Assembly: GCF_000735355.1 (NCBI RefSeq) | Contig: NZ_JMPI01000011.1 | Span: 1 to 64,000 of the forward strand | Direction: 5' to 3' | DNA length: 64,000 nucleotides | Origin: Buttiauxella agrestis ATCC 33320 | Lineage (GTDB): Bacteria; Pseudomonadota; Gammaproteobacteria; Enterobacterales; Enterobacteriaceae | Part shown: positions 9,517-62,986 of the stretch, in pieces | How the letters are laid out: every line of letters starts with the position of its first letter | Position numbering within the stretch: the stretch's first letter is position 1 | Translations under genes and position numbers: made by a program | The notes under the pieces: generated by a model | Databases searched by the model: none | What the model was told of the DNA's origin: nothing | Seen by the model: only the letters and a program-made list of their open reading frames with translations

Positions 9517-9684
9517 AGTTTATCCGGCTTAGAGCCAGAGCCTCGGAAGGAAAGTTGAAAATCTAAGGGTTAATACGTTTTGACTGCCAGTCCGTGGAGG
9601 TTGGGCCAGCAATTTCAACGGGTAGTATAGCGTAAGGGTGTATAGGGCTGCCAGAGGGCATAATTTGGCCGCAGACGGCCTTTC

Positions 9685-13696: not shown

Positions 13697-15660
13697 CGGG
13701 AAGACTCCTGTGTCGGTTTGGAAGGCGCGTCACGCCGTGCTGCTTCGTTCAAAGAGGGAAATTCACGCAGGTCGATGGTGGGTGGCGAACCTGCGCCAAT
13801 ACGACTGTCGATAATCATCAATGGGCTATGGCCTAAGGTTTGATGCAATTGGCTGAACCACAACTCATCAACAAAAACCTGGCCGGATTGCTCGACCGCC
13901 TGTTTTTGCGCGGCAAAACGCACGGCAGTTGCCTGTGCTTTGCTGGTGACATCGGTGGCGTTCATTTGTGCCTGGTTCTGGCGGGTTGTCGCAGTGGTTT
14001 GCGCGCTGGCGGCGAGTTGCGCCGCGTGCCCACGCTCGCGCGATACCAGTGCCTGAGCTGAAATTTGCGCGGCCTGCACGCCATGAAATGCATCGGCGGC
14101 CCCGGCTGGTGGGTGAATGGCTTCGACCACCGTTGAAAGCAACTCCACGCCGCTGTGTAACTCGTCGAGCCTTTGTTGCACTGCCCGGTTAATCTGGCTG
14201 GCTAAGGCATTACGTTGATCGCCGAGTAACTGTTCAAGCGTGAGCGAGGAAAACTGATGCACCAGCACTTGATTGGCGGTGCTGCGGATAAGCTCTGGCA
14301 GATTATTGCTGCGGTAAGTCGCCGCCAGCGCGGCGTTATCGGTTAAGCCAATGCGCCACATAAATCGCACATCGCTGTTAATAATTTGCAGGCTTTGCTG
14401 GTCGCCACTTTGGCTGGCGATAATCTGTGCTTTATCAAAGCTATGAACGGCATCCCACAGGCGATCCGCACTTTGCGGCGCATTACCTTCCGCACTTGCC
14501 AGCGGTTCGGATGCGGCATCCGGCTCTTCTCCGGCAGCCAGTTCATGCACCTGGCCGTTCTCAGTCAGCATCACCTGACCAAAAGGCCACGGCAGCCCGT
14601 AATGCAGGCCGGCAGGTAAGACCGCAACAGGTTTACCAAAACGTTCGTAAATGCCGCGCTGGGTGGTAGAAACTTGCTGGATACCCGTCAGCAACCAGCC
14701 GCAAAACATCATCACCGCAACAACCGGCACAAAAGCACGCTTCAGGACGGTGAACGCCCAAAGTTGGCGCAAATCAATGCCAAAGTGCTGATGGATTTCG
14801 TGCTGGAGAAACAGTAGCGGGCGCGGCGGCCAGACGAGCTGTGCCGCCAGTTGGCTTTTCGCCAGATATTCCGGTTCTGCGTCTTCCGCTTTAGGCGGCA
14901 TAAACAGCGAAAAAAGACCGCGCAGCAGGAACTCAATCGCCACCAGTAACACCGGAATCGCGGGCAGGTTAATCAGCAGTGAGAGCGTGACAGACGGGAA
15001 AACCAACGGCGGTAAAGAGAGGAATTGCACCGCAAGCGTTAAGCGCAATATCGGCGCAATGAATTTCGCTTCCGGCCAGGCTTCGCTGGCAGTCGCCGCC
15101 AGATGACGTTCGGCGACCAGAGTGGCAAACATCGCCGCCGCAATTATGCCGACTGCCGCCCAGCGTAATGTGCCTTCATCCAGCCCGACGTAATTAGCGC
15201 CCCAGCCCGAAAGCGTGACAAACAACACGAGTGCCGCCATCAAGGCAAGGCTAATCCCATCGCTTTTGAGCGCCGCGTTGATGCGTTTGACGTTAACAGG
15301 AATGAGCGCGCCAAGCCGCTGATAAATGGTCGGCGAGGCTTCAGCTTCCGTCAGAGCTTCTTCACTTTTCAACGGTGGAGCGAAGATATCAGCTCGCCAC
15401 TGGCATATTCGTTGCGCGTTATAAAACGCGACGGCTAACAACATCAGCACGGCGGCATTGCTGGTTAACAGCGCTGCCCAGCGGGAAGATGACTCGAAAG
15501 TATGAGTTATCAGCGCCACAACAAGCATAAGGAAAATCGTCGCACCTAGCCCGAAAACGACTCTTGCGGCCAGCATGGCCTGCGAAGATGCCAAAGAGTA
15601 TCGAGCCTGAGCGACTAACGGCGAATGTTCCGTCGGTTCAGATAATGGGGAGTGCTGCAT
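13693..15660 (-). CDS. Multi-spanning SPFH-domain (HflK-like) membrane protein
   Basis: A 655-residue protein and the first gene of the operon. The N-terminal half carries about six hydrophobic segments (near residues 30-55, 62-80, 130-155, 165-185, 205-240 and 310-330). These are followed by an SPFH domain (about 330-540, starting QQVSTTQRGIYERFGKPVAVLP). A long Ala/Gln-rich helix comes next (about 540-610, with TTATTRQNQAQMNATDVTSK), then a short tail. Such a membrane platform in front of an SPFH domain is unusual compared with single-pass HflK. The stop overlaps the next start by four bases. No strong ribosome-binding site is seen before its ATG. Confidence 0.87.
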   Translation of the reverse strand: MQHSPLSEPTEHSPLVAQARYSLASSQAMLAARVVFGLGATIFLMLVVALITHTFESSSRWAALLTSNAAVLMLLAVAFYNAQRICQWRADIFAPPLKSEEALTEAEASPTIYQRLGALIPVNVKRINAALKSDGISLALMAALVLFVTLSGWGANYVGLDEGTLRWAAVGIIAAAMFATLVAERHLAATASEAWPEAKFIAPILRLTLAVQFLSLPPLVFPSVTLSLLINLPAIPVLLVAIEFLLRGLFSLFMPPKAEDAEPEYLAKSQLAAQLVWPPRPLLFLQHEIHQHFGIDLRQLWAFTVLKRAFVPVVAVMMFCGWLLTGIQQVSTTQRGIYERFGKPVAVLPAGLHYGLPWPFGQVMLTENGQVHELAAGEEPDAASEPLASAEGNAPQSADRLWDAVHSFDKAQIIASQSGDQQSLQIINSDVRFMWRIGLTDNAALAATYRSNNLPELIRSTANQVLVHQFSSLTLEQLLGDQRNALASQINRAVQQRLDELHSGVELLSTVVEAIHPPAGAADAFHGVQAAQISAQALVSRERGHAAQLAASAQTTATTRQNQAQMNATDVTSKAQATAVRFAAQKQAVEQSGQVFVDELWFSQLHQTLGHSPLMIIDSRIGAGSPPTIDLREFPSLNEAARRDAPSKPTQESSR

Positions 15661-50485: not shown

Positions 50486-50509
50486 TTCTAGATAAAATTG
50501 AAGTTTGCC

Positions 50510-53020
50510 ATGTCACTAATCATTGCTCGTGCCCTCGTGAAACTTGTTTTCATTCGCAGTTCATTGTTTTTATCTATTTTGGCGTCTATATCTATGGCGC
50601 AAGGTCAGGCTTATTTTGACCCCGGCATGATGCAGTCTGTGGGCGGTGCCCCCGCTATTACCGATCTCAATTCGGTATTAGCAAACCAGGTTAAAGAGGG
50701 GACTTATCACGTTTATATTGAAGTTAATGGCAAAAAATTCGCGACGGAAGATATTCAATTCTCAATGCAGAAAGAAGCACTTATCCCGTGTATTCCGGTT
50801 GAGATGTACGCAAAAATCGGCGTTGATTCATCTTCACACGATGTGAATATCAATCTGGACAAAGAAGATCGTAGCTGTGTATTACTGAACGAAGCTGTGC
50901 CGGTTGCCACGTCTTCGTTTGATTATCTTACTAAAAAACTGTCGCTCTCTTTCCCGCAAACTACGCTACGTACCTTGCTTAAAGATGAAATTCCCCCAGA
51001 GCTTTGGGATGACGGCATTCCCGCGTTGCTCATCGGTTACCAGGCGTCTGGTTCACAAACCATTGAAAATAAGCAAGATAGTTCTGCAGGTGCTGAAAAC
51101 TATGTCAATTTTAAAAATGGGCTGAATCTTGGCCCATGGCGTTTACGCAATTTATCGACTCTCTCGCAAAGTAGCGGGTCTGGTACGGAAGTGGAAAGCC
51201 TCAGCACTTACGTTGAGCGCGCAATTCCTTCGTTAAAAAGTGAACTGGTGATGGGCGACGCCTACACTAGTGGCGATCTGTTCGACAGTATTCGCATTAA
51301 AGGTCTGCAACTGACTTCTGATACCGAGATGATCCCGGATAGCATTAATGGTTTTTCTCCGGTTATCCGTGGTGTTGCGAATAGCAATGCAAAAGTCATT
51401 GTTCGGCAAAACAATAATATAATTTATCAAACCAATGTTGCACCCGGCCCGTTTGCTATTTCTGATATGGCTCCCGTTTCGTCCGGGGGAATATTAGATA
51501 TCACCATTCAAGAGGCTGATGGCAGCGAAAAACATCTTAGCCAGTCATTTTCTTCAATGTCTATTTTGCAGCGCCAGGGCTCGTTGAAATATGGGCTATC
51601 CGCCGGGAAATATTCAGAGGCAACAATAAAGTCTGAGGAGCCTGATGTATTCCAGGCTACAGCGGCTTACGGTTTACCCTATGATGTGACTTTATTAAGC
51701 GGTATACAGAATACCAACGATTACCGAAGCTACGACCTTGGTGTGGGGCTAGACTTAGGGTTTCTCGGCGCATTCTCCGTTGATGTGGCAAAAGAAAACT
51801 CCACGCTTGCGGAAAGTCATGAGAACCGCAGTGGAACTGCGATGCATCTTGCTTACTCTAACCATATGGAAACAACCCGCAGCGATATTAATTTTAATTA
51901 CACGCAATATAGTGACCGCTATGTTTCATTTGCCGATAACTATGGTACGGCAGACGAAAGTAAAGCGCGCGAAAAACAGTTCACGCTATCAATTAACCAG
52001 GCGGTGACTGACACTCAAACTATATTTGTTTCTATGAACCAAACTGATTATAGAGACAGCACCAGCTCAAAAATGTACCAGCTTGGATTTAACTCCCCGA
52101 TCGGGCCAGTAAGTACGTCACTCACCCTGAGCCTTAACCAGGATTTTGATGAAGAAGGGACCGTCACTAATGACAAACAGGTGATGGTCAACTTCACACT
52201 GCCTTTATCCGTATTCGACAAAGAAGCAAAAAATTCGGCTTCGTTAATGATGACCAATGACACCGAAGGGAATAGTAATCAAACGTTGGGCTTGCATGGC
52301 AATATCATGGATTCCGAAGTGTTCACCTATAACACGCAATTGGGTTACAACGTCAATAAGGGTGAAGAAGATGGCAGAAATGCCAGTATAACTACCGACT
52401 ATAAAGGGAGTTATGGTGAGATTCAGATGGGTTATAACCAGGATGAAAACCAAAAGCAGTTTACCTATGGGCTAAACGGGCAACTTATTATCCATCGCCA
52501 TGGAGCGACAATTGGTCAATATTCCGATGGCGCGTTAGCGTTGGTGAGTGCACCGGGTGCGAGCCATGTTGGTGTGAAAAATAACCTCGGCGTTTATACC
52601 GACTGGCGCGGTTATACCATCGTGCCTGAATTATCTGCATACGATAATAACTCGATTCAAATTGATGCTGACAGCGTGGGCGCTAATATTTCCTTTGAAA
52701 ATATCTCAACCAACGTTATTCCCACTAAAGATGCGGTCGTCCTTGCTAATTTCCCGGCGAATATTGGCCGTAAAGTGCTCTTTACTGTGAGCCAGAGAGG
52801 AAAAGTCATTCCCTTTGGTTCGCAAGCAAGCCTGATAGATAGCGACAGAATGTTCTTTGTAGGCGACGGTGGGCAACTCTTTATTACCGGTGCGCCGGAT
52901 GAAGGGGATCTCAGTATTAGTATGGACGATAAGCAGGCTTGCAAAGCACATTATAAATTGCCGGTCGCGAGCGGGAAATTACCGATAACAATGATGAAAC
53001 TAACCTGTGGGAATAGCTAA
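50510..53020 (+). CDS. Outer-membrane fimbrial usher
   Basis: An 836-residue usher with signal peptide (about 1-32), N-terminal periplasmic domain (FDPGMMQSVGGAPAITDLNSV), a 24-strand barrel, a plug region and two C-terminal domains ending in the cysteine pair (CKAHYK and LTCGNS). It forms the secretion pore for chaperone-pilin complexes. The start is the ATG at 50510; a TTG at 50498 is in frame. No strong ribosome-binding site is visible, so coupling with the upstream chaperone gene is possible. Confidence 0.92.
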   Translation: MSLIIARALVKLVFIRSSLFLSILASISMAQGQAYFDPGMMQSVGGAPAITDLNSVLANQVKEGTYHVYIEVNGKKFATEDIQFSMQKEALIPCIPVEMYAKIGVDSSSHDVNINLDKEDRSCVLLNEAVPVATSSFDYLTKKLSLSFPQTTLRTLLKDEIPPELWDDGIPALLIGYQASGSQTIENKQDSSAGAENYVNFKNGLNLGPWRLRNLSTLSQSSGSGTEVESLSTYVERAIPSLKSELVMGDAYTSGDLFDSIRIKGLQLTSDTEMIPDSINGFSPVIRGVANSNAKVIVRQNNNIIYQTNVAPGPFAISDMAPVSSGGILDITIQEADGSEKHLSQSFSSMSILQRQGSLKYGLSAGKYSEATIKSEEPDVFQATAAYGLPYDVTLLSGIQNTNDYRSYDLGVGLDLGFLGAFSVDVAKENSTLAESHENRSGTAMHLAYSNHMETTRSDINFNYTQYSDRYVSFADNYGTADESKAREKQFTLSINQAVTDTQTIFVSMNQTDYRDSTSSKMYQLGFNSPIGPVSTSLTLSLNQDFDEEGTVTNDKQVMVNFTLPLSVFDKEAKNSASLMMTNDTEGNSNQTLGLHGNIMDSEVFTYNTQLGYNVNKGEEDGRNASITTDYKGSYGEIQMGYNQDENQKQFTYGLNGQLIIHRHGATIGQYSDGALALVSAPGASHVGVKNNLGVYTDWRGYTIVPELSAYDNNSIQIDADSVGANISFENISTNVIPTKDAVVLANFPANIGRKVLFTVSQRGKVIPFGSQASLIDSDRMFFVGDGGQLFITGAPDEGDLSISMDDKQACKAHYKLPVASGKLPITMMKLTCGNS

Positions 53021-53021
53021 G

Positions 53022-54002
53022 ATGCGTGGTTCCTTAATAATATTACTGCTGTCAGGGTTGATTGCGCTATTCCCCACGCTCGCTTCAGCCTGCAATGTGC
53101 AAAGCCAATCCCGGCTTTCAATTGTGCTTAACGGATCGCTACAAAAAGATCCTCTGCAAGCCAGTGTGGGCGACACGCTGTATGTGAAACGCGCTTCGCT
53201 TTCTAGCCTTGCACATCAACGCAAGGATATTAGCTGCGCCTCATCGCAGTCGCAGGATCAGTTATCAATCACCGGGATCATGAACGGAAGCATGACGGGT
53301 GATAATGTTTATCCGACTTCGGTCGCAGGTATTGGCATTCGCCTTTCTTTGATTATTCGTCAGAAAGGAAACCACACGCCGCTTAGCACGCTGCCGGTTA
53401 ACGAACAGTTTGCGCTGGATGATAAAAGCGATTTAACCAGTGACGATGTTTTTATTAAAACCGAACTGGTCAAGACCGGCTCAATTGAGTCATTAGAGCA
53501 CATCAGCTATCAAAGTCCTTCCATATTGACTCTGACTCGTTCGGCACTACAGCAGTCAGTCAGCGTGGATTATTCTTTTAGTGCCACGCCACCTGCGGGG
53601 TATTGCCACTTCTTAGCGGCGAATGCGGCATTCAGCCTGGTTCCTGTTGATGTTGCGACACTACAAGCGCAGAAGACTGCCGCATCCACTCAGCTTGATA
53701 TCACTTATGTGTGTACCGGTTCCCCGGAACACATCGAAATGACGTTGTATGGTGTGGCAGCAGACCCGGAAAAGGGGATTTTGAAAAATACTCTGACTGC
53801 GGATAACGCGACGGGTGTGGGTGTGCAACTCCTCTATCGCAATCTGCCTTTGGCTTTTGGCTCGCCCGTGTCGCTCGATGATCTACCGATGGTGCATAAC
53901 CAGAGTTCGATACCGCTGGCGGCACGTTATATCGCAATCTCGCCAGAAGTGAAGGCCGGGAAAATTGATACCATTGCGACCATCAAACTTAACTTCCTAT
54001 AA
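53022..54002 (+). CDS. Putative two-domain tip adhesin
   Basis: A 326-residue exported protein, almost twice the size of the shaft pilins. A signal peptide (about 1-23) is followed by an N-terminal domain (about 24-185) and a C-terminal pilin-like domain (about 190-326, with cysteines in GYCHFLA and TYVCTGS). It ends IKLNFL, like the shaft subunits. This layout is the usual one for tip adhesins, in which the front domain binds the receptor. The receptor cannot be predicted. It begins one base after the usher stop. Confidence 0.82.
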   Translation: MRGSLIILLLSGLIALFPTLASACNVQSQSRLSIVLNGSLQKDPLQASVGDTLYVKRASLSSLAHQRKDISCASSQSQDQLSITGIMNGSMTGDNVYPTSVAGIGIRLSLIIRQKGNHTPLSTLPVNEQFALDDKSDLTSDDVFIKTELVKTGSIESLEHISYQSPSILTLTRSALQQSVSVDYSFSATPPAGYCHFLAANAAFSLVPVDVATLQAQKTAASTQLDITYVCTGSPEHIEMTLYGVAADPEKGILKNTLTADNATGVGVQLLYRNLPLAFGSPVSLDDLPMVHNQSSIPLAARYIAISPEVKAGKIDTIATIKLNFL

Positions 54003-54354
54003 TTTAAAGCAATCCCCACTACTTAAAAATACGGTTGGGTAAAACTCAACCGTTCTGGCACCGCAGGAAGTTTTCTTTACCGGAAAATGTGCCATAAGCC
54101 TTTCCAATATCTCCCCCAAAATCCCCCCTGGCTCACAAGTTTGCTCAAAAACTATCACTGAGAACTCTCACTTAAGCATTGCTAATGCGTGACTGTAATC
54201 ACACTAAACCAGCCAATCATCACGATTCAGCCCTTTTTTGTGGCGCAAATCACTATTGAAGCCGCGATTTCCACTTCGAAGTGGAAAACAACTCGCTACA
54301 AACCTTTAACCCTGGTCGATACCTTAAAAGCCTGACAGCGAAGAGGTACGTAGT
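54003..54354. other. Promoter region of the SFCGS/DUF4310-4312 operon
   Basis: A 352-bp gap without a gene. A hairpin ACGGTTGGGT/ACTCAACCGT (54032-54054) may end the fimbrial transcript. The perfect 20-bp palindrome at 54268 is a strong operator candidate. A GAGGT at 54342 serves the following GTG start. I found no acceptable sigma-54 promoter. Confidence 0.55.
54268..54287. promoter_or_regulatory. Perfect 20-bp palindrome, candidate operator
   Basis: TTTCCACTTC is followed directly by its exact reverse complement GAAGTGGAAA. It is centred 77 bp upstream of the PRD gene start, in the position of an activator or repressor site. The operon's own regulator (61076-62986) has DNA-binding domains and is the natural candidate to bind it. 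I noticed no second copy in the window. Confidence 0.65.
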
Positions 54355-54690
54355 GTGAATGACGGAGCGGTAATGGTTAATGAAGCCGGGTGTACCGAGG
54401 AAACGCTTCTCACCGAACGAGTGTTGGCGTTTATCAATACGCTGCTTATGAACAGAAACATCACGCCGAACGCGGTGCAGGAACAGATGCTGACATCCCA
54501 CGTTCGTGCCATGGCTCATCGGTCATTGACCGGCGAACCGCTGCCAGAAGTTGAAGAGAGTTTGTTTGAGGAAATCTCTGATGACTCGCTGGTGATGGCG
54601 AAAGAAGTGGTGGAACAGTTTGGCAATCTCCCTGTTGAAGAGGCGTGGTTGTTGTCGGTGCATTTTGAAGTCGCGAAAGACAATCTTTGA
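54355..54690 (+). CDS. Free-standing PRD-domain protein
   Basis: A 111-residue protein consisting of one PTS regulation domain. The two conserved histidines are His49 (MLTSHVRAMAHR) and His103 (AWLLSVHFEV), the residues that PTS proteins phosphorylate in larger regulators. It has no DNA-binding or RNA-binding domain. E. coli YhfY, in the unrelated yhf operon, is a comparable lone PRD. The GTG start at 54355 has GAGGT eight bases before it. It leads the operon and could sense PTS phosphorylation or act on the main regulator. Confidence 0.85.
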   Translation: MNDGAVMVNEAGCTEETLLTERVLAFINTLLMNRNITPNAVQEQMLTSHVRAMAHRSLTGEPLPEVEESLFEEISDDSLVMAKEVVEQFGNLPVEEAWLLSVHFEVAKDNL

Positions 54691-54707
54691 ATAATCAGGA
54701 GAAACAC

Positions 54708-55070
54708 ATGGAACAAATTACCGTAGTGATTGGCGATCGTCTGGGAAAAGGGCAGAAAGTGGCGGCAGGGATTGAGAAAGCGGGCGGTCGTGCCGTGGTG
54801 ATTCCTGGTGTTGCCGCTGATATGAAACTGGGCGATGTAATGAAAGCAGAAAATGCCACGTTTGGTATCTCTTTCTGCGGTAGCGGCGGCGCAGGTGCTA
54901 TCACCGCGCAAACCAAACACGGTTACAAAGCCAAGTACGGCATGCGTTCAGTGGATGAAGGCGTGACCGCAATTAACGAAGGCAATAACGTTCTGGGCTT
55001 TGGTTTTATGGATAAAGAAGAACTGGGCGAGCGTCTGGTACAGGCCTGGGCCAAGAAGTACGGTCAGTGA
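54708..55070 (+). CDS. SFCGS-family glycine-rich protein
   Basis: A 120-residue soluble protein with the family motif SFCGSGGAGA at 55-64 (Cys57). The N-terminal VVIGDRLGKGQKVAAGIEKAGG looks like a nucleotide or phosphate-binding fold. The cysteine-glycine loop resembles, loosely, the phosphorylated cysteine loop of PTS EIIB proteins, but its place in the middle of the chain differs. No function has been proven. It stands directly before DUF4312, DUF4311 and DUF4310, and I infer it forms a complex with them. The start at 54708 follows AGGAGAAAC. Confidence 0.88.
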   Translation: MEQITVVIGDRLGKGQKVAAGIEKAGGRAVVIPGVAADMKLGDVMKAENATFGISFCGSGGAGAITAQTKHGYKAKYGMRSVDEGVTAINEGNNVLGFGFMDKEELGERLVQAWAKKYGQ

Positions 55071-55072
55071 GC

Positions 55073-55369
55073 ATGAAAGAACACTTCTCAGAAACGGTGA
55101 GAGTGAAAGGGCGCGGCGATACCAAAGCCAAAGCCTTTGCTGACGCCCTGAATCATGTTCAGGGCTCGGTGATGAAATCTTCTCCCCACATTTTACTGCG
55201 CATTGAGCCACAGGATGTGCAAGTTATTCAGGCGCGAGTCCAGGTTAAGAAGGAAGCGTTTTTGTTCTTCTTCCTGAAGCGTGAAAAACAAATGTTCAGC
55301 GTCGAGCTGGATGTTTCAGTCAATGTTACTGCAATCAACATGGACAAAGTCGATTTCATTCCCCAATAA
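55073..55369 (+). CDS. DUF4312 family protein
   Basis: A 98-residue protein without signal peptide or clear membrane segment, predicted as alternating strands and helices. It has the stretch VKGRGDTKAKAFADALNHVQ and the strands ILLRIEPQDVQVIQARVQV and FSVELDVSVNVTAINMDKVD. It is always found, as far as I recall, with the SFCGS protein and DUF4311/DUF4310. The ATG at 55073 lies two bases after the SFCGS stop; an overlapping GTG at 55067 is possible. Confidence 0.85.
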   Translation: MKEHFSETVRVKGRGDTKAKAFADALNHVQGSVMKSSPHILLRIEPQDVQVIQARVQVKKEAFLFFFLKREKQMFSVELDVSVNVTAINMDKVDFIPQ

Positions 55370-55392
55370 AATCACACAGAAAGGACAGACAG

Positions 55393-56169
55393 ATGTTCTT
55401 AATTATATTAATAAAATCGCTAATCATCGGCGGTCTGGTGGGTGTTGGAGTTGGCGCCGGGGCTGCACGTATGTTTCACGCGCCTACCACTCAAGGGATG
55501 GGCGCTTTTCGTACTCTCGGTGAGCTAAATTCCTGCGAAGGCGATCCGGCATCACACTTCTCATTTGGTCTGGGCTTCTTCTTTAACGCATGGGCGTCCT
55601 CGGTTGCAGCTGGAGCGTTCACACAAGATGTTGACCACCGCATTATCCCAAACTGGGGTGCTGCCGCGTTGATGGTGAAAAACCGTAACGTCGCCGAAAC
55701 CCTGCACGACCCGAGAAAGATGGCTATCGCCTGCGGCATCATCGGCATGATTGTGGTCGCCTTCCTTAACACCACGGCTTCGGCGGTTCCGGCTGCATTG
55801 CAGGTCACGGCGGTAAAAGTTCTGGTGCCTGCCGCTAACCTGCTGGTTAACATCATAATGCCAGTGATTTTCTGGCTGGCGGCGATTGACGCCGGTAAGA
55901 AATCGGGCTTCTGGGCGACGATTTTCGGCGGCTGCGCACAGCTGATTATGGGTAACGCCGTACCGGGTCTGGTACTGGGCATCCTGATTGGTAAAGGTGT
56001 GGAAGAGAGCGGTTGGAACCACGTCACCAAAGTGATGATGGTCGCGATTATCGCGCTGTTTGTCCTGAGTGGTTTCTTCCGCGGTTTCGACATGAAGATG
56101 ATCGAATCCTTCCATCTGACCGTGCCGAACTGGCTGGATCTGATTCATAACTCGCTGAGCGGAAAATAA
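55393..56169 (+). CDS. DUF4311 family membrane protein
   Basis: A 258-residue inner-membrane protein with about five to six hydrophobic segments (near 3-26, 105-127, 137-165, 172-202 and 213-234). Between the first two lies a long conserved hydrophilic loop with NSCEGDPASHFSFGLGFFF. It is rich in glycine and alanine within the membrane parts, as transport proteins are. Its family has no known function. It and DUF4310 look like the two membrane parts of a transporter. AAAGGAC serves as the ribosome-binding site. Confidence 0.87.
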   Translation: MFLIILIKSLIIGGLVGVGVGAGAARMFHAPTTQGMGAFRTLGELNSCEGDPASHFSFGLGFFFNAWASSVAAGAFTQDVDHRIIPNWGAAALMVKNRNVAETLHDPRKMAIACGIIGMIVVAFLNTTASAVPAALQVTAVKVLVPAANLLVNIIMPVIFWLAAIDAGKKSGFWATIFGGCAQLIMGNAVPGLVLGILIGKGVEESGWNHVTKVMMVAIIALFVLSGFFRGFDMKMIESFHLTVPNWLDLIHNSLSGK

Positions 56170-56177
56170 GGGAGCCA

Positions 56178-56822
56178 ATGATGGAAGAGAATAAAGGTTT
56201 TTGGTACGCCGACTGGTCTTTCCCGATTTTTGTTGGCCTGCTTTCATCCGGCGTGTTCGCCGGGACACACATGTACTACCTCTACGGAATCGGCGCATTT
56301 AACGAAGTAGCGTTTGTTTCCATGCTGCGTGCCGGAATCGACACCGGCGTGTATGGCGCAGTCGCAGCATTTGGTGCCAGCTTCCTGTTTGCCCGCATCA
56401 TTGAAGGTTCGCTGGTCGGGATTCTGGACATCGGCGGGGCGATTCAAACCGGTGTCGGGCTTGGCGTTCCTGCCCTGTTGCTGGGGGCCGGGATTGTCTT
56501 CCCAGTCGCTAACTTCGCCGCTTCTTTAGCCACCGGTTTGGTGATTGGACTGGCGATTGGTTATCTGATCATTCTTGCGCGTAAATTCACCATCAACCAA
56601 AGCAACTCTACTTACGGTGCTGACGTGATGATGGGCGCGGGTAACGCATCCGGCCGCTTCCTTGGCCCGTTAATTATCCTCAGCGCGATGGCCGCCTCGA
56701 TTCCCATTGGTATCGGATCCTTGATTGGTTCGCTGCTGTTTTACCTGTGGAACAAACCGATTACCGGCGGCGCAATTCTTGGCGCGATGCTTTTTGGCGC
56801 TTTCTTCCCGATTGCTTTGTAG
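56178..56822 (+). CDS. DUF4310 family membrane protein
   Basis: A 214-residue inner-membrane protein with about six hydrophobic segments. The N-terminus MMEENKGFWYADWSFPIFVG is conserved-looking, and the membrane parts are glycine-rich (GVGLGVPALLLGAG, GSLIGSLLF). No function is known for the family. It follows DUF4311 by eight bases and precedes a hairpin that separates the membrane genes from the enzyme genes. Confidence 0.87.
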   Translation: MMEENKGFWYADWSFPIFVGLLSSGVFAGTHMYYLYGIGAFNEVAFVSMLRAGIDTGVYGAVAAFGASFLFARIIEGSLVGILDIGGAIQTGVGLGVPALLLGAGIVFPVANFAASLATGLVIGLAIGYLIILARKFTINQSNSTYGADVMMGAGNASGRFLGPLIILSAMAASIPIGIGSLIGSLLFYLWNKPITGGAILGAMLFGAFFPIAL

Positions 56823-56829
56823 AACTTTT

Positions 56830-56857
56830 TTGGCGGATGGCGCGTCCCATCCGCCAA
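56830..56857. other. Perfect 11-bp stem hairpin between DUF4310 and the amidohydrolase gene
   Basis: TTGGCGGATGG pairs exactly with CCATCCGCCAA around the loop CGCGTC. AATAAGGAAAAAATC and the next start follow, without a T run, so it is not a terminator. It may be a REP-derived mRNA stability element that lets the upstream genes be expressed at a different level. Confidence 0.75.
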
Positions 56858-56870
56858 TAAGGAAAAAATC

Positions 56871-58004
56871 ATGTACGACTTAATCCTGCGCAACGCCCGC
56901 CTGGTGGACGATACGGTTATCGACATCGCGATTAAAGATGGAAAAATTGCGGCACTGGGCGATGTCACGGGCGAAACACGCGAAGAACGCCAGCTTAACG
57001 GCGAGTTTTACGTTAGCGCCGGCTGGATTGATTCCCACGTTCACTGCTATCAAAAATCCCCGATTTATCACGATGACCCCGACAGTATCGGTATTCATAC
57101 AGGCGTGACGACGGTGGTGGATGCCGGAAGCACCGGTGCAGATGACATCGACGAGTTTTACGAGCTGACTCGCAGTGCGCGCACCGACGTTTACGCTCTG
57201 CTGAATATCTCGAAGGTTGGGCTGATTGCGCAAAACGAACTCTCTGATATGGCGAATATCGACAAAGTGGCGGTGTGCGATGCCGTCACGCGCCACCCGG
57301 GTTTTATCATCGGTATCAAAGCCCGCATGAGCAGTAGCGTGGTCGGTGCGAACGGCATTAAACCTCTTGAAATCGCCAAAGAAATCCAGCGTGAAAACGG
57401 TGATTTACCGCTGATGGTACACATTGGCAATAATCCGCCGGACCTCGATGAAATCACCGATTTATTAACCAGCGGCGACATCATCACCCACTGCTACAAC
57501 GGCAAACCGAACCGCATTCTGACGTCTGCGGGTGAATTACGTGCCTCGGTTTCCAGCGCGATACAGCGTGGCGTGCGCCTTGATGTCGGCCATGGCACGG
57601 CCAGTTTCAGCTTTGAAGTGGCGAAAATCGCCATTAGCAAAGGGATTTTTCCGCACACCATCAGCTCCGATATTTACTGCCGCAACCGCATTAACGGCCC
57701 GGTGCATAGCCTCGGCGTGGTGATGTCAAAATTCCTCTCCATCGGCATGTCGCTGCCACAAGTCATTGATTGTGTGACGTCACATGCAGCCGACGGTCTG
57801 CGCCTGGTGAATAAAGGCCGTTTGTCGATTGGCCTTGATGGCGACCTGACTATTTTTGCCAAACGCCGCCAGCCGACGGTATTTACCGACTCAGAAAATC
57901 AGACACTCCAGGGTGAACAACTACTGGTGGCACTTGCCGCAGTTCGCGCTGGAAAATGGTTTACGACCGAACAAGGGAAGCAAGAACATGTCTTCGATTT
58001 ATGA
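56871..58004 (+). CDS. Amidohydrolase/deacetylase-family metallohydrolase
   Basis: A 377-residue amidohydrolase-superfamily enzyme. Metal ligands can be placed: His56 and His58 (DSHVH), the probable carbamylated Lys150 (GIKARM), His184 (MVHIGN), His207 (ITHCYNG) and Asp267 (SSDIY). Enzymes of this branch remove acyl groups from N-acyl or O-acyl amino and hydroxy acids. In this operon it would free the amino group that the DgaE-like enzyme then eliminates. Its end overlaps the dgaE-like gene by 17 bases. Confidence 0.9.
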   Translation: MYDLILRNARLVDDTVIDIAIKDGKIAALGDVTGETREERQLNGEFYVSAGWIDSHVHCYQKSPIYHDDPDSIGIHTGVTTVVDAGSTGADDIDEFYELTRSARTDVYALLNISKVGLIAQNELSDMANIDKVAVCDAVTRHPGFIIGIKARMSSSVVGANGIKPLEIAKEIQRENGDLPLMVHIGNNPPDLDEITDLLTSGDIITHCYNGKPNRILTSAGELRASVSSAIQRGVRLDVGHGTASFSFEVAKIAISKGIFPHTISSDIYCRNRINGPVHSLGVVMSKFLSIGMSLPQVIDCVTSHAADGLRLVNKGRLSIGLDGDLTIFAKRRQPTVFTDSENQTLQGEQLLVALAAVRAGKWFTTEQGKQEHVFDL

Positions 58005-59106
58005 AAAATACAATTTAAAACAAGTTATTAATGCATCCGGCCGCATGACGGCACTCGGTGTTTCTACTCCGCGCCCGGAAGTGGTGGACGCCGTGACGAA
58101 AGGCATGAATCACTACTTTGAAATGAAAGACCTGGTGAACAAAACTGGGGAATACATCGCAAAACTGCTGGATGTGGAAGCGGCGACGGTAGTGTCCTGT
58201 GCTTCCGCCGGTATCGCGCAATCGGTGGCGGCGGTGCTGGTGAAAGACAACGCGTGGCTGATTGAAAACCTGCATGGCACCCCGCTTGAGAACAACGAAA
58301 TAGTGTTACCAAAAGGCCACAACGTGAACTTCGGCGCACCGGTAGGCACCATGGTTTATCTCGGTGGCGGCAAAGTGGTTGAAGCCGGTTACGCCAACGA
58401 ATGTTCGGCTGATCAACTGGCTGCGGCGATTTCCCCGCGCACGGCGGCCATTCTGTATATCAAATCTCACCACTCGGTGCAGAAAAGCATGCTTAGTGTT
58501 GAGCAGGCGGCGGTCGTGGCCCGCAAGCATAACCTGCCATTAATTGTTGATGCTGCAGCGGAAGAAGATTTGCAGTGTTACTACCGCGCCGGTGCTGATC
58601 TGGTGATTTACAGCGGCGCAAAAGCGATTGAAGGGCCAACCAGCGGTCTGGTGATCGGCAAAGCGCAGTACATCGAGTGGGTGAAACTCCAAACTGGCGG
58701 CATTGGACGCGCCATGAAAGTCGGTAAAGAAGGCATTCTTGGCCTGACCTGCGCTATCGAACATTATCTGAGTGCGGAAAAAGAGAGCGGTGCGCAGATG
58801 GTGGAAAAAATGACGCCGTTTATCGCTAATCTCAATACGATTGAGGGGATCAGCGCCCGCGTCGTGTGGGATGCCGCCGGTCGTGATATCGCGCGTACTG
58901 AAATTAAATTCGATGAAGCGGTGATTGGCACCAGTACCGTAGAGTTAGTCAGCGCGCTGAAACAAGGCGAATATGCGATTTTCTTCCGTGGCTACAAAGC
59001 TAACGAAGGGATTATCGAAGCCGACGTACGCAGCGTAAACCCACAGCAGCTAGAGATTATTTATCACAGCATTAAGGCTTTGGTCAGCAAGGAGAAACAA
59101 GCATGA
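57988..59106 (+). CDS. DgaE-family PLP-dependent ammonia-lyase
   Basis: A 372-residue SelA-like PLP enzyme. Asp188 (LIVDAAAEED) would hold the pyridine nitrogen and Lys212 (YSGAKAIEGP) form the internal aldimine. The closest known function is D-glucosaminate-6-phosphate ammonia-lyase (DgaE of Salmonella), which gives 2-keto-3-deoxygluconate 6-phosphate and ammonia. The ATG at 57988 gives MSSIYEKYNLKQVINASGRM, the usual beginning. It overlaps both neighbours, 17 bases before and four after. Confidence 0.9.
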   Translation: MSSIYEKYNLKQVINASGRMTALGVSTPRPEVVDAVTKGMNHYFEMKDLVNKTGEYIAKLLDVEAATVVSCASAGIAQSVAAVLVKDNAWLIENLHGTPLENNEIVLPKGHNVNFGAPVGTMVYLGGGKVVEAGYANECSADQLAAAISPRTAAILYIKSHHSVQKSMLSVEQAAVVARKHNLPLIVDAAAEEDLQCYYRAGADLVIYSGAKAIEGPTSGLVIGKAQYIEWVKLQTGGIGRAMKVGKEGILGLTCAIEHYLSAEKESGAQMVEKMTPFIANLNTIEGISARVVWDAAGRDIARTEIKFDEAVIGTSTVELVSALKQGEYAIFFRGYKANEGIIEADVRSVNPQQLEIIYHSIKALVSKEKQA

Positions 59107-59843
59107 AATTGACCCCGAACTTTTACCGCGATCGTGTTTGCCTGAACGTGCTGGCTGGCTCCAAAGAGAATGCTAAAGCTATTTATGACGCTGCCGAAGG
59201 GCATGTGCTGGTGGGCGTGCTTTCCAAAAATTACCCGGATGTCGCCAGTGCTGTTGCAGATATGCGCGAATATGCGGCGTTGATCGAAAATGCGCTCTCG
59301 GTTGGCCTTGGTGCAGGCGACCCGAATCAATCGGCAATGGTGAGTGAGATCTCCCGCCAGGTGCAGCCGCAGCATGTAAACCAGGTATTTACCGGCGTGG
59401 GAACCAGCCGTGCGCTGCTTGGGCAAAATGAAAGTGTGGTTAACGGCCTGGTTTCTCCAACCGGCACCGTCGGTATGGTGAAAATTTCCACCGGCCCGTT
59501 GAGTTCTGGCGCGCCAGACGGCATCGTACCTGTCGAAACAGCAATTAAGCTACTCAAAGACATGGGCGGAAGCTCAGTCAAATATTTCCCAATGGGCGGC
59601 CTGCAATGCCGTGATGAATATGAAGCGGTAGCGAAAGCTTGCGCAAAATATGATTTCTGGCTGGAGCCCACCGGTGGTATTGACCTTGAGAACTACGAAG
59701 AAATTCTGAAAATCGCACTAGATGCGGGCGTAAGCAAAGTGATTCCGCATATTTACAGTTCAATTATTGATAAAGCGAGCGGCAATACGCGTCCGCAAGA
59801 TGTGCGCACTTTGCTGGAAATGACCAAGAAGTTGGTCGGCTAA
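59103..59843 (+). CDS. DgaF-type 2-dehydro-3-deoxy-phosphogluconate aldolase
   Basis: A 246-residue class I aldolase matching the KDGP aldolase (DgaF) family. Probable Schiff-base region is SSVKYFPMGGL (Lys160); the closing phosphate-binding part is LEPTGGIDLENY. It splits 2-keto-3-deoxygluconate 6-phosphate into pyruvate and glyceraldehyde 3-phosphate. Four-base coupling to the DgaE-like gene fits two consecutive steps. Confidence 0.9.
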   Translation: MKLTPNFYRDRVCLNVLAGSKENAKAIYDAAEGHVLVGVLSKNYPDVASAVADMREYAALIENALSVGLGAGDPNQSAMVSEISRQVQPQHVNQVFTGVGTSRALLGQNESVVNGLVSPTGTVGMVKISTGPLSSGAPDGIVPVETAIKLLKDMGGSSVKYFPMGGLQCRDEYEAVAKACAKYDFWLEPTGGIDLENYEEILKIALDAGVSKVIPHIYSSIIDKASGNTRPQDVRTLLEMTKKLVG

Positions 59844-59849
59844 AACCAT

Positions 59850-59922
59850 CCTCACCCCGGCCCTCTCCCTGAGGGAGAGGGGGAAACTGGGCAGTTCCCT
59901 CTCCTGGGGGAGAGGGTGAGGG
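59850..59922. repeat. CCCTCACCC/GGGTGAGGG palindromic element
   Basis: A shorter 73-bp copy, beginning CCTCACCCCGGCCCTCTCCC and ending GGAGAGGGTGAGGG. It lies inside the operon, between the aldolase and lactonase genes, and so could divide expression of the two parts. Confidence 0.85.
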
Positions 59923-59953
59923 CGACCAATCTCATACACAACAAGGATCTCTG

Positions 59954-61060
59954 ATGCCTGCAACACAGCCGCAGTATGCCTGGATTGGCACTTACCATCC
60001 CAATGGAGAAGGTGTGTACCGCTTCCTGGTAGATGCCGAAACCGGTGCGTTGACCCACAAAACGTTAGTTTGCGAATTGCCCCATGCGGCACAGCTAACC
60101 GCCGCTAAAAATGGCAAAACGTTGTATGTGGCAAGCGAAGCAGAACAAGGCACTGTTGCAGCGTTGCGCGTGGGGGATGACGGTAATCTTACCGAGCTGA
60201 ATCAGGTTTCATCGGGCGGTGCGGGGGCGGTTTTTCTCGCACTCACGCCGGATGGGCGCTATCTGTTGGTGGCTAATTACGGCAGCGGTTCCGTTGCCGT
60301 ATTGCCCGTGAGAGCCGACGGCAGCCTCGGTGAGGCCACTGACGTCCAACAAGATTCAGGGCCTGCGGGAGCTAAAAAGCCGGTAGCCGCCGTAGAAGGC
60401 AGTTTTGCTGCCAGCGGTCACAGCAGTGCGCACGCTCATATGATCGCCGCCGATCCCACGGGCAAATACGTGTTTACTACCGATCTGGGTCTGGATCGAA
60501 TCTATCAATATCGTTTCGACAAAACCCACGGCAAGCTCGTGCCTAACGATCCTCCTTATATTGATGCTTCTTCAAAAGGTGCCGGGCCTCGCCACTTTGT
60601 GTTTACGCCTGGCGGTGAGGGTTTGTGGCTGATCAACGAAGAGGCTTCCACGCTGACGTATTACCAGGTTGATGAAAACCTGGGAACACTGACCGAAGGC
60701 GAAAGTCTGTCTTCGCTGCCCGAAGGTTTCAAAGGCACCAGTTATGCTTCGGGTTTACTGCTGAGTAAAGACGGAAAACAGCTTTACATCGCTAACCGTT
60801 TGCACAACAGCATCGGTCATTTTACCGTCACCGCGAACGGCAAACTGGTGCTTCAGGAACATGTCTGGACGCGGGGAGATTACCCACGCACGCTCACCCT
60901 CGACCATAATGAAAAGTATCTGTACGTCATGAATCAGCGCAGTGACAACATCACTCGTTTTAGTGTGGCGCACGGCAATGGAAAACTGACTTTTGTTGAG
61001 GATTACATTGCGGTGGGAAGCCCATCACAGATGGTGATGACAGGCATCACGCCCGATTAA
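59954..61060 (+). CDS. Lactonase, 6-phosphogluconolactonase-like seven-bladed propeller
   Basis: A 368-residue protein of the lactonase family that includes E. coli Pgl (YbhE). Seven repeating blades are visible, with recurring units such as NGKTLYVASE, DGRYLLVANYGSGSV and TGKYVFTTDLGLDRIYQYRF. The likely catalytic region GHSSAHAHMIAADP fits the family. No signal peptide is present, so it acts in the cytoplasm. In this operon it may open an aldonolactone, perhaps phosphorylated, before deacylation and ammonia loss. AAGGATCTCTG precedes the ATG. Confidence 0.88.
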   Translation: MPATQPQYAWIGTYHPNGEGVYRFLVDAETGALTHKTLVCELPHAAQLTAAKNGKTLYVASEAEQGTVAALRVGDDGNLTELNQVSSGGAGAVFLALTPDGRYLLVANYGSGSVAVLPVRADGSLGEATDVQQDSGPAGAKKPVAAVEGSFAASGHSSAHAHMIAADPTGKYVFTTDLGLDRIYQYRFDKTHGKLVPNDPPYIDASSKGAGPRHFVFTPGGEGLWLINEEASTLTYYQVDENLGTLTEGESLSSLPEGFKGTSYASGLLLSKDGKQLYIANRLHNSIGHFTVTANGKLVLQEHVWTRGDYPRTLTLDHNEKYLYVMNQRSDNITRFSVAHGNGKLTFVEDYIAVGSPSQMVMTGITPD

Positions 61061-61075
61061 AGAAAGGAAACGGCA

Positions 61076-62986
61076 GTGAGATTCCCAAACCAACGTCTGG
61101 CCCAGTTGTTTGAAATGCTGCAAAACGAAACGCTGCCCCAGGATGAACTGGCGCGGCGCTTATCTGTTTCTACCCGCACGGTGCGCGCGGATATTACTGC
61201 TCTAAACGCATTGATGGCCGGGCATGGTGCGCAGTTCGTGCTCAGTCGCGGTGCGGGGTATCAGCTCAATATTGCCGACAGCTCGCTCTATCAGGAGCTG
61301 GTGCAGCAGCCTTCGCGCCAGTTGCGGATCCCACGTAATTCTCCGGAACGCGTCCATTATTTAGTGGTACGTTTTCTGACATCTGCCTTCTCATTAAAAC
61401 TCGAAGATCTGGCGGAAGAGTGGTTTGTCAGCCGCGCTACCTTGCAAAGCGATATGGCAGAAGTGCGTGAATGGCTGGCGCGTTACAACCTGACGATTGA
61501 AACCCGCCCGCGTCACGGCATGAAATTGTTTGGCAGCGAAATGTCGGTGCGTGCCTGCCTGACGGAGCTACTTTGGCAACTGACTCAGGAAGATAGCGAT
61601 AACCCGCTGCTGACTGAAGAAGCGCTGAACGCTGGCGTGCCAGAGCAACTGGCGGCGGAATTACATAACTGTTTTACGCGCTGCCGAATTCGTCTGACGG
61701 ACGAGGGCGAGCAGTTTATCCGTTTGTATTGCGCCGTGGCTGTGCGCCGTATCAGCGAAGGTTATCCGCTGCCGGAATTTAGTGCCGACAATGTGGACGA
61801 AGCCGTACGGGAAGCCGCCCGTGAAATTACGGTGTTGATTCAGAAACTGGCCGATAAGCCACTTTCGGAAGCGGAAGAACAATGGCTACAAGTGCATATC
61901 GCCTCGCGCCAGATTCAGGATGTGGCCCCGAGCGCCATCAGTGCCGACGACGACGAAGCGCTGGTAAATTACATTCTGAGCTTTATCAACAGCAACTATA
62001 ACTACAACTTATTGACAGATAAGCAATTGCACGCTGATTTGCTTACCCATATCAAAACCATGATCACCCGGGTGCGGTATCAGATAAACATTCCGAATCC
62101 GCTGCTCGACAACATTAAACAGCACTATCCGATGGCCTATGACATGACGCTGGCGGCGGTGTCGAGCTGGGGGAAGTACACTCCTTATGTCATCAGCGAA
62201 AACGAAATTGGTTTTCTGGTGCTGCATATTGGCGTCGGGCTGGAGCGGCATTACAACATTGGTTATCAGCGCCATCCGCGTGTGCTACTGGTTTGTGACA
62301 CCGGCAATTCCACGGTGCGTATGATTCAGGCGATGCTGTTGCGTAAATACCCGCAAATTGAAGTGACGCGGATTATCTCGTTGCGCGATTACGAACAGCT
62401 CGCCTGCGTTGAAGAAGATTTTGTGATTTCCACGGCGCGCGTAACGGATAAACAAAAACCGACGGTGGTCGTCGCCCCGTTCCCAACGGAGTATCAGCTC
62501 GAACAGCTTGGCAAGCTGGTGTTGGTGGATAGAACCCGCCCGTACATGCTGGAAAAATTCTTTGATGCCAGTCACTTCCGAGTGATTGATGAGCCTGTCA
62601 CACAGCAGGAGTTGTTCAGTTCGTTGTGCCAGCAACTTGAGCAGGAAGGGTTTGTCGGTGCGGACTTTTATCCGTCAGTCGTTGAGCGCGAGGCAATAGT
62701 CAGTACGGTGTTGGGCGAGGGGATTGCGCTTCCGCACTCATTGGGACTCATGGCCAACAAAACCGTGGTTTATACCGTTCTTGCCCCGCAGGGAATTGGC
62801 TGGGGTGACGAAACGGCGCACGTCATCTTCCTGCTCGCTATCAGCAAAAGTGAGTACGAAGAGGCGATGGCAATTTACGATTTGTTTGTGACTTTTCTGC
62901 GTGAACGGGCGATGCCGCGCTTGCGGGACAGCAGGAGTTTTGACGAGTTTAAAGCGGTGGCAATGGATTGTTTGAGTCGGTTTTAA
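61076..62986 (+). CDS. PRD/EIIB/EIIA-containing transcriptional regulator (BglG/LicR type)
   Basis: A 636-residue regulator. Two N-terminal helix-turn-helix units (about 5-60 and 90-150) are followed by PRD1 (about 185-285, His274), PRD2 (about 290-395, His325 and His384), an EIIB-like domain with Cys408 (VCDTGNSTVRM) and an EIIA-like domain with His554 (ALPHSLG). It lacks the RNA-binding CAT domain of antiterminators, so it should act on DNA like LicR or MtlR. PTS phosphorylation would set its activity. The GTG start at 61076 has AAAGGAAAC upstream. It closes the operon and probably binds the palindrome at 54268. Confidence 0.92.
   Translation: MRFPNQRLAQLFEMLQNETLPQDELARRLSVSTRTVRADITALNALMAGHGAQFVLSRGAGYQLNIADSSLYQELVQQPSRQLRIPRNSPERVHYLVVRFLTSAFSLKLEDLAEEWFVSRATLQSDMAEVREWLARYNLTIETRPRHGMKLFGSEMSVRACLTELLWQLTQEDSDNPLLTEEALNAGVPEQLAAELHNCFTRCRIRLTDEGEQFIRLYCAVAVRRISEGYPLPEFSADNVDEAVREAAREITVLIQKLADKPLSEAEEQWLQVHIASRQIQDVAPSAISADDDEALVNYILSFINSNYNYNLLTDKQLHADLLTHIKTMITRVRYQINIPNPLLDNIKQHYPMAYDMTLAAVSSWGKYTPYVISENEIGFLVLHIGVGLERHYNIGYQRHPRVLLVCDTGNSTVRMIQAMLLRKYPQIEVTRIISLRDYEQLACVEEDFVISTARVTDKQKPTVVVAPFPTEYQLEQLGKLVLVDRTRPYMLEKFFDASHFRVIDEPVTQQELFSSLCQQLEQEGFVGADFYPSVVEREAIVSTVLGEGIALPHSLGLMANKTVVYTVLAPQGIGWGDETAHVIFLLAISKSEYEEAMAIYDLFVTFLRERAMPRLRDSRSFDEFKAVAMDCLSRF

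Follow-up and report, generated by a model that had tools for sequence, protein, structure and literature searches.

How does a bacterium take up the substrate of a catabolic operon whose enzymes point to an amino-sugar acid, and in which profile searches find no EIIABCD permease of the Man family of the phosphotransferase system (PTS)? The question is raised by ten consecutive plus-strand genes, with short gaps or overlaps between them, at positions 54355-62986 of the window, by which we mean the whole stretch of 64,000 nucleotides analysed from contig NZ_JMPI01000011.1 of Buttiauxella agrestis ATCC 33320. We propose as the best uptake candidate four of the encoded proteins, SFCGS, DUF4312, DUF4311 and DUF4310, which appear from their conserved arrangement to form one unit, and we report that SFCGS has the predicted fold of RpiB/LacAB isomerases. 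An earlier note, made from the sequence of this DNA, had described the same run of ten genes, and the open reading frames bear it out; its start at 54268 is no gene start but opens a perfect palindrome of 20 bp. The features of the locus are:

54268..54287, no strand: operator-like perfect palindrome TTTCC-N10-GGAAA upstream of the lone PRD gene, for which a binding protein is presumed
54355..54690, plus strand: lone PRD protein, EF_0829 family (TIGR03582, 129.5 bits, cut-off 69.35)
54708..55070, plus strand: SFCGS protein (PF14272/TIGR03577), predicted RpiB/LacAB fold, Cys57 invariant
55067..55369, plus strand: DUF4312, small soluble protein (PF14189, 112.2 bits; TIGR03578)
55393..56169, plus strand: DUF4311, polytopic membrane protein (PF14188/TIGR03580), no solved fold matched
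56178..56822, plus strand: DUF4310, membrane protein (PF14187, 351.2 bits; TIGR03579)
56871..58004, plus strand: amidohydrolase/deacetylase, EF_0837 family (TIGR03583, 558.8 bits)
57988..59106, plus strand: DgaE-family pyridoxal phosphate (PLP) ammonia lyase (TIGR01437, 602.6 bits, cut-off 385.3)
59103..59843, plus strand: DgaF-family aldolase for 2-keto-3-deoxygluconate (KDG) 6-phosphate (PF07071, 368.7 bits; TIGR03581; NF047796, 396.7 bits, cut-off 300)
59954..61060, plus strand: seven-bladed beta-propeller lactonase, an optional member (PF10282, 328.7 bits)
61076..62986, plus strand: regulator HTH-Mga-PRD-(EIIB-like)-EIIA (HTH_11, Mga, PRD and PTS_EIIA_2 above cut-off; the EIIB-like label is presumptive, based on a motif)

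The new and, in our view, most useful fact is the predicted fold of SFCGS. In its AlphaFold model (predicted local distance difference test, pLDDT, 92.6) it resembles RpiB/LacAB isomerases, whose labels stand on 43 of the first 45 Foldseek matches listed; among the fold matches listed by VIA-align the best is RpiB and there is no EIIB. In the PDB a sequence search with SFCGS found nothing, the fold search alone revealing this likeness. The match to Pfam PF02502 (15.8 bits, E 0.014) lies below the gathering cut-off of 24.7. With hhalign, RpiB is reached at E 1.9e-4, while the best of 62 other families from the same loci gives 0.0085. Cys57, numbered correctly in the earlier note when counted from the ATG at 54708, is invariant (54/54 sequences) and aligns with Cys66 in the C-G-T-G loop of RpiB, for which the available text of PMC4783025 gives a catalytic role. 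The sites of RpiB Cys66 and Asp9 are Cys and Asp in all 54 SFCGS and all 26 RpiB-type sequences. Site 99 is N, E, Q, R or A in 52 of the 54 SFCGS sequences, His not being among these five commonest residues, and the sites of Arg133 and Arg137 are gaps in 52/54 and 54/54, SFCGS ending before the C-terminal arginines. Since only 15-16 of the 26 RpiB-type sequences themselves have these residues (His99 in 16, Arg133 in 15, Arg137 in 15), they are characteristic of RpiB enzymes but not of the superfamily at large; judged by its residues, SFCGS is a member of the fold and not an RpiB enzyme.

This bears on the suggestion of the earlier note that the four proteins may be a phosphotransferase with phosphate on Cys57 of SFCGS: the idea of SFCGS as a phosphocysteine EIIB loses support, while the idea of an uptake function gains. 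SFCGS as an EIIA or EIIB relative was not supported, at hhalign E values of 0.4 (one EIIA-man), 0.028 (one EIIB-sorbose) and 0.42 (the EIIB-like stretch of the regulator), the comparisons with single EIIA-man and EIIB-sorbose sequences being a weak control for the SFCGS profile. Nor did any of the four proteins match a PTS EII family in profile searches at E up to 0.1. For DUF4311 no solved fold was matched. In DUF4312 the only polar residues conserved at 95% or more are Glu63 and Arg72 (72/72 each), and the same 72-sequence alignment contains no conserved His or Cys. Comparison of DUF4312, DUF4311 and DUF4310 with PDB sequences gave nothing that we trust, the lowest E values for DUF4312 (1.5e-6) coming from many short RecA-fusion matches.

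That the four proteins belong together, as the earlier note had supposed, is supported by a survey of 85 loci: the best 80 of at least 498 confirmed relatives from a scan of species genomes, four plasmid records and the window. The best 80 are skewed to enterococci because the query began with an Enterococcus faecalis sequence. All four core genes were detected in 83 loci (SFCGS was undetected in L052 and L083), and in 83/83 of these they keep one order within 2.4 kb. A PRD stretch lies just upstream in 82 of the 83, and in one locus (L036:7030-9237) a single open frame encodes the regulator with this PRD joined to its end. The three enzymes (amidohydrolase, DgaE, DgaF) are all present in 74/85 loci; five lack DgaF alone (L029, L032, L083, L090, L096), while DgaF is the sole enzyme in L024 and the amidohydrolase in L042. 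In L024:9926-11400, on Aeromonas caviae pKAM479_3, the starts of the DUF4310 match and of the DgaF match that follows lie about 0.1 kb apart and amidohydrolase and DgaE are undetected, so this operon looks internally deleted or misassembled. The occurrence of the four genes without catabolic genes, which the earlier note had set against an uptake function, was seen in so far as 4/85 loci (L035, L036, L038, L059) lack any adjacent enzyme, but the L059 contig stops 43 bases past the DUF4310 match and the three other genomes encode the enzymes elsewhere. In these three, regulator, PRD, SFCGS, DUF4312, DUF4311 and DUF4310 stand together, and the detached enzymes cluster with a PTS EIIC, a MupG-family hydrolase and a PfkB kinase. 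It is mainly because SFCGS stays with the membrane genes in these three genomes that we read it as part of a transporter unit. The EIIC-MupG-amidohydrolase-DgaE-DgaF-PfkB cluster of E. faecalis 13-SD-W-01 is preceded by genes for a glycoside hydrolase of family GH123 and for a regulator of the GntR type (L181:205-1917).

Within the family of the window, all nine core genes recur in 20/20 loci, one of which (L203) has several frame breaks, and the lactonase in 9/20; in the wider set the lactonase occurs in 2/85 loci, one being the window. As nine of the ten genes are thus conserved in the family and the core recurs across phyla, the operon is not a chance arrangement.

The enzyme families support the claim of the earlier note that the operon is catabolic and directed at an amino-sugar acid, and would fit the breakdown of N-acetyl-glucosaminate-type acids. 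The solved relative of the lyase, 7lc0 (E 4.2e-84), is labelled D-glucosaminate-6-phosphate ammonia lyase among other names; the aldolase has the solved relative 3m0z and scores above the KDG-6-phosphate aldolase equivalog cut-off. The nearest solved chains of the amidohydrolase are 8wzy (labelled dihydroorotase) and 2ics (labelled adenine deaminase), and proteins of the cog3964 group, EF0837 and Atu3266, have reportedly been studied as esterases. In the genome of the window itself, the one DgaE over the cut-off and the one DgaF both lie in this operon.

Does the acid arrive phosphorylated? In the dga system a Man-type PTS phosphorylates D-glucosaminate on uptake, and a kinase is not needed. 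The presence of a normal PTS permease with the same enzymes, another case that the earlier note had set against its idea, was found in part: 18 of the 74 three-enzyme loci carry a PTS EIIC and/or a MupG hydrolase in the operon, and 56 do not. A PfkB kinase is encoded in 15 of these 18 but in only 1 of the 56 (Fisher p 7e-12, shared ancestry uncorrected); the counts use identity thresholds, by which an EIIC-like match in L051 and a PfkB-like match in L086, both below 30% identity, were left out. KDG-kinase models are among the best NCBIfam hits of the four PfkB proteins tested, all below cut-off. The 20 loci of the family of the window contain no PfkB, EIIC or MupG. With a kinase in just 1/56, the loci in which the four-gene set is the sole transporter candidate look like dga, a hint that the acid supplied by the four-gene module is phosphorylated. 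For the 18 other loci a disaccharide, chitobionate for instance, would be a fitting substrate: the EIIC of E. faecalis passes a model of the lactose/cellobiose family, and ChbE, a MupG relative, is implicated by genetics as a phospho-N-acetylglucosaminidase in the available text of PMC12791066. Splitting of such a disaccharide would leave an unphosphorylated acid, and it is in these loci that PfkB is frequent.

The expression of the operon may likewise be tied to the PTS. The palindrome at 54268, TTTCCACTTCGAAGTGGAAA, begins 87 bp before the first gene, and TTTCC-N10-GGAAA is found upstream of the lone PRD gene in 42/42 proteobacterial rows, or 41 distinct loci, L001 coming from within the window. 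Random 400-bp pieces of the same loci contain it in 224/4200 cases, a figure raised by the sites themselves; shuffles of the window gave a mean of 0.01 matches to the palindrome (18-bp core), and in its own 4.7-Mb genome it is the only site with up to 3 mismatches. The regulator probably acts there. In 57 Firmicute loci TTTCC-N10-GGAAA is absent upstream of the regulator. An inverted repeat TGCACT-N6-AGTGCA stands upstream of the regulator in 34 of these 57 (counted with no control set), possibly a second type of operator. Among 77 regulator rows, in which that of the window stands twice, His325 is conserved in 77, His384 in 75, Cys407 in 67 and the EIIA-like His554 in 22.

The explanation that we put forward, tentatively and with slightly less than an even chance of being right as a whole, is that the operon imports and degrades an N-acyl 2-amino-2-deoxy-aldonate, e.g. 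N-acetyl-D-glucosaminate (GlcNAc1A). DUF4311 and DUF4310 would form the membrane path, and SFCGS, with its isomerase fold and partial RpiB active site, would be a cytoplasmic subunit of the transporter together with DUF4312, while the lone PRD and the PRD/EIIA regulator would couple uptake and transcription to PTS phosphorylation. The acid would arrive in, or be passed to, the 6-phosphate form, the amidohydrolase would strip the acyl group, and the DgaE-like enzyme would remove ammonia to give KDG-6-phosphate, which DgaF would cleave to pyruvate and glyceraldehyde 3-phosphate; the lactonase, where present, might open lactone forms.

Several observations weigh against this explanation. DUF4311 and DUF4310 showed no similarity by hhalign to YhfT (the membrane protein of the E. 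coli yhf operon), one EII-Sor or one EIID, and we rejected them as halves of YhfT or as EIIC/EIID for want of a profile signal, though N-terminal motifs look alike by eye. The lyase, rightly called DgaE-like in the earlier note in so far as it passes the DgaE-family model, falls below the cut-off of the D-glucosaminate-6-phosphate ammonia-lyase equivalog NF047797 (374.4 against 600 bits); this cut-off may be narrow, because the DgaE beside a Man-type PTS in L183 scores just 363. The kinase counts are uncorrected for ancestry, come from the enterococci-skewed best 80 of at least 498 and omit the two weak matches, and L061, one of the three EIIC loci without a kinase, is cut by a contig end near DgaF. 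A housekeeping KDG kinase may serve in these genomes and remove the need for phosphorylating uptake. Finally, neither EI nor HPr was found in the available contigs of the L091 genome. The L091 contig ends inside the regulator, so that the position next to it, where a Bartonella copy carries an HPr-EI fusion (see below), is not seen there. The regulator frame of L091 is broken at 15300-15350, near an AATCAT/AATCCT tandem repeat, by slippage or decay possibly.

The strongest alternative, doubtful in our judgement but a serious contender, follows from the kinase point: the four genes would encode a non-phosphorylating (e.g. ion-coupled) transporter of GlcNAc1A-type acids, a housekeeping KDG kinase would act after the lyase, and the PRDs would only regulate. 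The ong pathway works in this way, with an SSS transporter and KdgK according to the available text of PMC9537276, and judged from the best fold matches SFCGS is no EIIB; the distribution of KDG-type kinases (1/56 against 15/18) argues the other way. So does the copy on a plasmid of Bartonella sp. HY406, which brings its own HPr-EI, a 671-residue fusion gene directly after the regulator (L023:8047-10062). This is a possible dedicated phosphorelay on the plasmid and is only suggestive of substrate phosphorylation. We did not count as dedicated the EI beside the L039 copy, probably a housekeeping one because it is the only EI over the cut-off in that genome, and we rejected an EI match in L203, which is the HPr-like part of a 374-residue frame on the other strand and was taken as a FruB-like neighbour.

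An unlikely but far-reaching alternative is a new PTS-type permease, in which phosphate would pass from HPr to the lone PRD (His49/His103), on to Cys57 of SFCGS and finally to the sugar acid in DUF4311/DUF4310. In the lone PRD, His49 (40/40) and His103 (39/40) are conserved, E. coli YhfY included, as is Cys57 in SFCGS; the Bartonella HPr-EI and the rarity of kinases (1/56) are consistent with such a chain, and so is the position of two small soluble and two membrane proteins where L183 has Man-type EIIA, EIIB, EIIC and EIID before DgaE/DgaF. Against it stand the predicted RpiB fold with Cys57 at the place of the RpiB catalytic base and the L091 genome without detected EI and HPr; we know of no lone PRD that donates phosphate to a transporter. 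It is equally unlikely that such permeases make up a new superfamily with an RpiB-fold subunit and a two-protein channel unrelated to EIIC/EIID, of which YhfY-YhfU-YhfT would be a second branch.

Improbable, too, is that SFCGS works in the pathway as an aldose-ketose isomerase, in the manner of LacA/LacB or RpiB, and that the two membrane proteins alone transport. LacAB act on sugar phosphates, SFCGS keeps the fold and the catalytic Cys loop, and lack of His99 does not exclude activity because 10/26 RpiB-type sequences lack it as well; but no His is among the listed site-99 residues (52/54), the Arg133/Arg137 segment is missing, and where the enzymes are detached, SFCGS remains beside the membrane genes. 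We give just as little credence to a membrane sensor or enzyme complex in place of a transporter, for although DUF4311 has no match among solved transporters, the search of 56/74 three-enzyme loci showed neither EIIC nor MupG and the gene order parallels EIIABCD in L183.

How widespread, then, is the operon, and what would an uptake function imply? A DUF4311 match is present in 96 of 198 genomes sampled from the family of the window, a sample taken to be Enterobacteriaceae; the count includes one genome with only a weak match (G381) and one with only a broken match (G301). A weak match in G000 was taken as chance, since it sits in a protein we presume to be DjlA-like. Of 274 genomes sampled from the class, SFCGS was found in one, that of the window itself. 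E. coli genomes contain no near match to 54268-56900. Many Lactobacillales carry the operon (best 80 of at least 498 confirmed matches), and copies lie on six plasmid records, at least two of them chromosome-sized. Our literature search found no paper on the DUF4310, DUF4311, DUF4312 or SFCGS proteins or the TIGR names, and the EF locus tags only in transposon sequencing (Tn-seq) and in vivo expression technology (IVET) studies and one biofilm proteomics listing. In the available text of these, Tn-seq of E. faecalis lists EF0838 as potentially critical and has EF0839 and EF2975 as possible contributors to fitness in nutrient medium (PMC7701990), and among the sequences recovered by IVET in urine was a putative promoter, either of ef_0839 or of ef_2975 (PMC2912369); dgaEF are named among the duplicated genes of E. 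faecalis in the accessible part of PMC7396535.

An operon present in about half of the sampled genomes of the family and in many Lactobacillales has four core proteins for which we found no function on record and which may make up an uptake system of a hitherto undescribed kind. With SFCGS, and more weakly YhfU, predicted to belong to the RpiB/LacAB superfamily, structural work has a first point of entry into two orphan operons, of which E. coli K-12 carries one. Should the four proteins take up an oxidised amino sugar, a product of the oxidative breakdown of chitin would have a transporter beyond the marine bacteria with a known one, and should they phosphorylate it, the PTS would gain a further branch. 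Thanks to the one conserved operator, to the detached modules and to the HPr-EI copy of Bartonella, the claims of transport and phosphorylation can be put to a direct test.

In the rest of the window, usher-like and adhesin-like genes of a fimbrial operon (50498-54002; names from reading the translations) lie directly upstream on the same strand, and an Rfam match to the small RNA STnc450 (37.7 bits) was found at 9575-9632 on the minus strand.

The known system closest in gene content is the TIGRFAMs set EF_0829-EF_0839/AHA_3910-3917, which is the same cluster: seven genes of the operon (PRD, SFCGS, DUF4312, DUF4311, DUF4310, amidohydrolase and aldolase) score over the cut-offs of these models, and an eighth passes the DgaE-family TIGR01437. 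The models are named as hypothetical equivalogs, so the curators already knew the set as conserved proteins without a function; the cluster is known, its function is not, and the SFCGS fold, the operator and the detached modules are what the present analysis adds. With the isomerases RpiB, LacA and LacB, SFCGS shares the predicted fold and the Cys-Gly-[Thr/Ser]-Gly loop, but it has Arg for His10, other residues for His99 and no Arg133/Arg137 segment, and accompanies membrane genes.

The parallel to the E. coli yhf operon (yhfSTU-php-yhfWXYZ) drawn in the earlier note holds, for yhf too has a lone PRD, a small protein whose profile resembles RpiB (YhfU, DUF2620; L107:7349-7702; G000:C65, L185) next to a membrane protein (YhfT), and PLP and metallo-hydrolase enzymes. 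YhfU and YhfT are adjacent in 8/8 loci, with a lone PRD detected in 6/8, and the genome of the window carries a yhf operon besides the SFCGS operon. A direct relation of SFCGS to YhfU, at E 0.26 and 0.016, was too weak to claim. The yhf operon differs in having one membrane protein of 434 residues instead of two, with no similarity found to DUF4311/DUF4310, and other enzymes.

The ong pathway, which in the available text of PMC9537276 takes GlcNAc1A from oxidised chitin through a deacetylase, a deaminase and a KDG kinase, follows the same order of reactions (deacetylation, PLP-type deamination, KDG(-6-P), aldol cleavage; the comparison covers this order), as does the dga system but for the deacetylase. 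It differs in its SSS symporter OngIT and in a kinase that acts after the deaminase, the SFCGS set not being named in that text, and its OngB is described as subtype V D-aminoacylase-like in the accessible part of PMC12017989. The Dga system shares the DgaE and DgaF families, and a pair of small soluble proteins and a pair of membrane proteins are encoded immediately ahead of its enzymes, as in L183, where EIIA-man, PTSIIB_sorb, EII-Sor and EIID-AGA occupy the positions that SFCGS, DUF4312, DUF4311 and DUF4310 take in our operon, which in addition encodes an amidohydrolase and is accompanied by a regulator of the Mga/PRD and not of the sigma-54 type.

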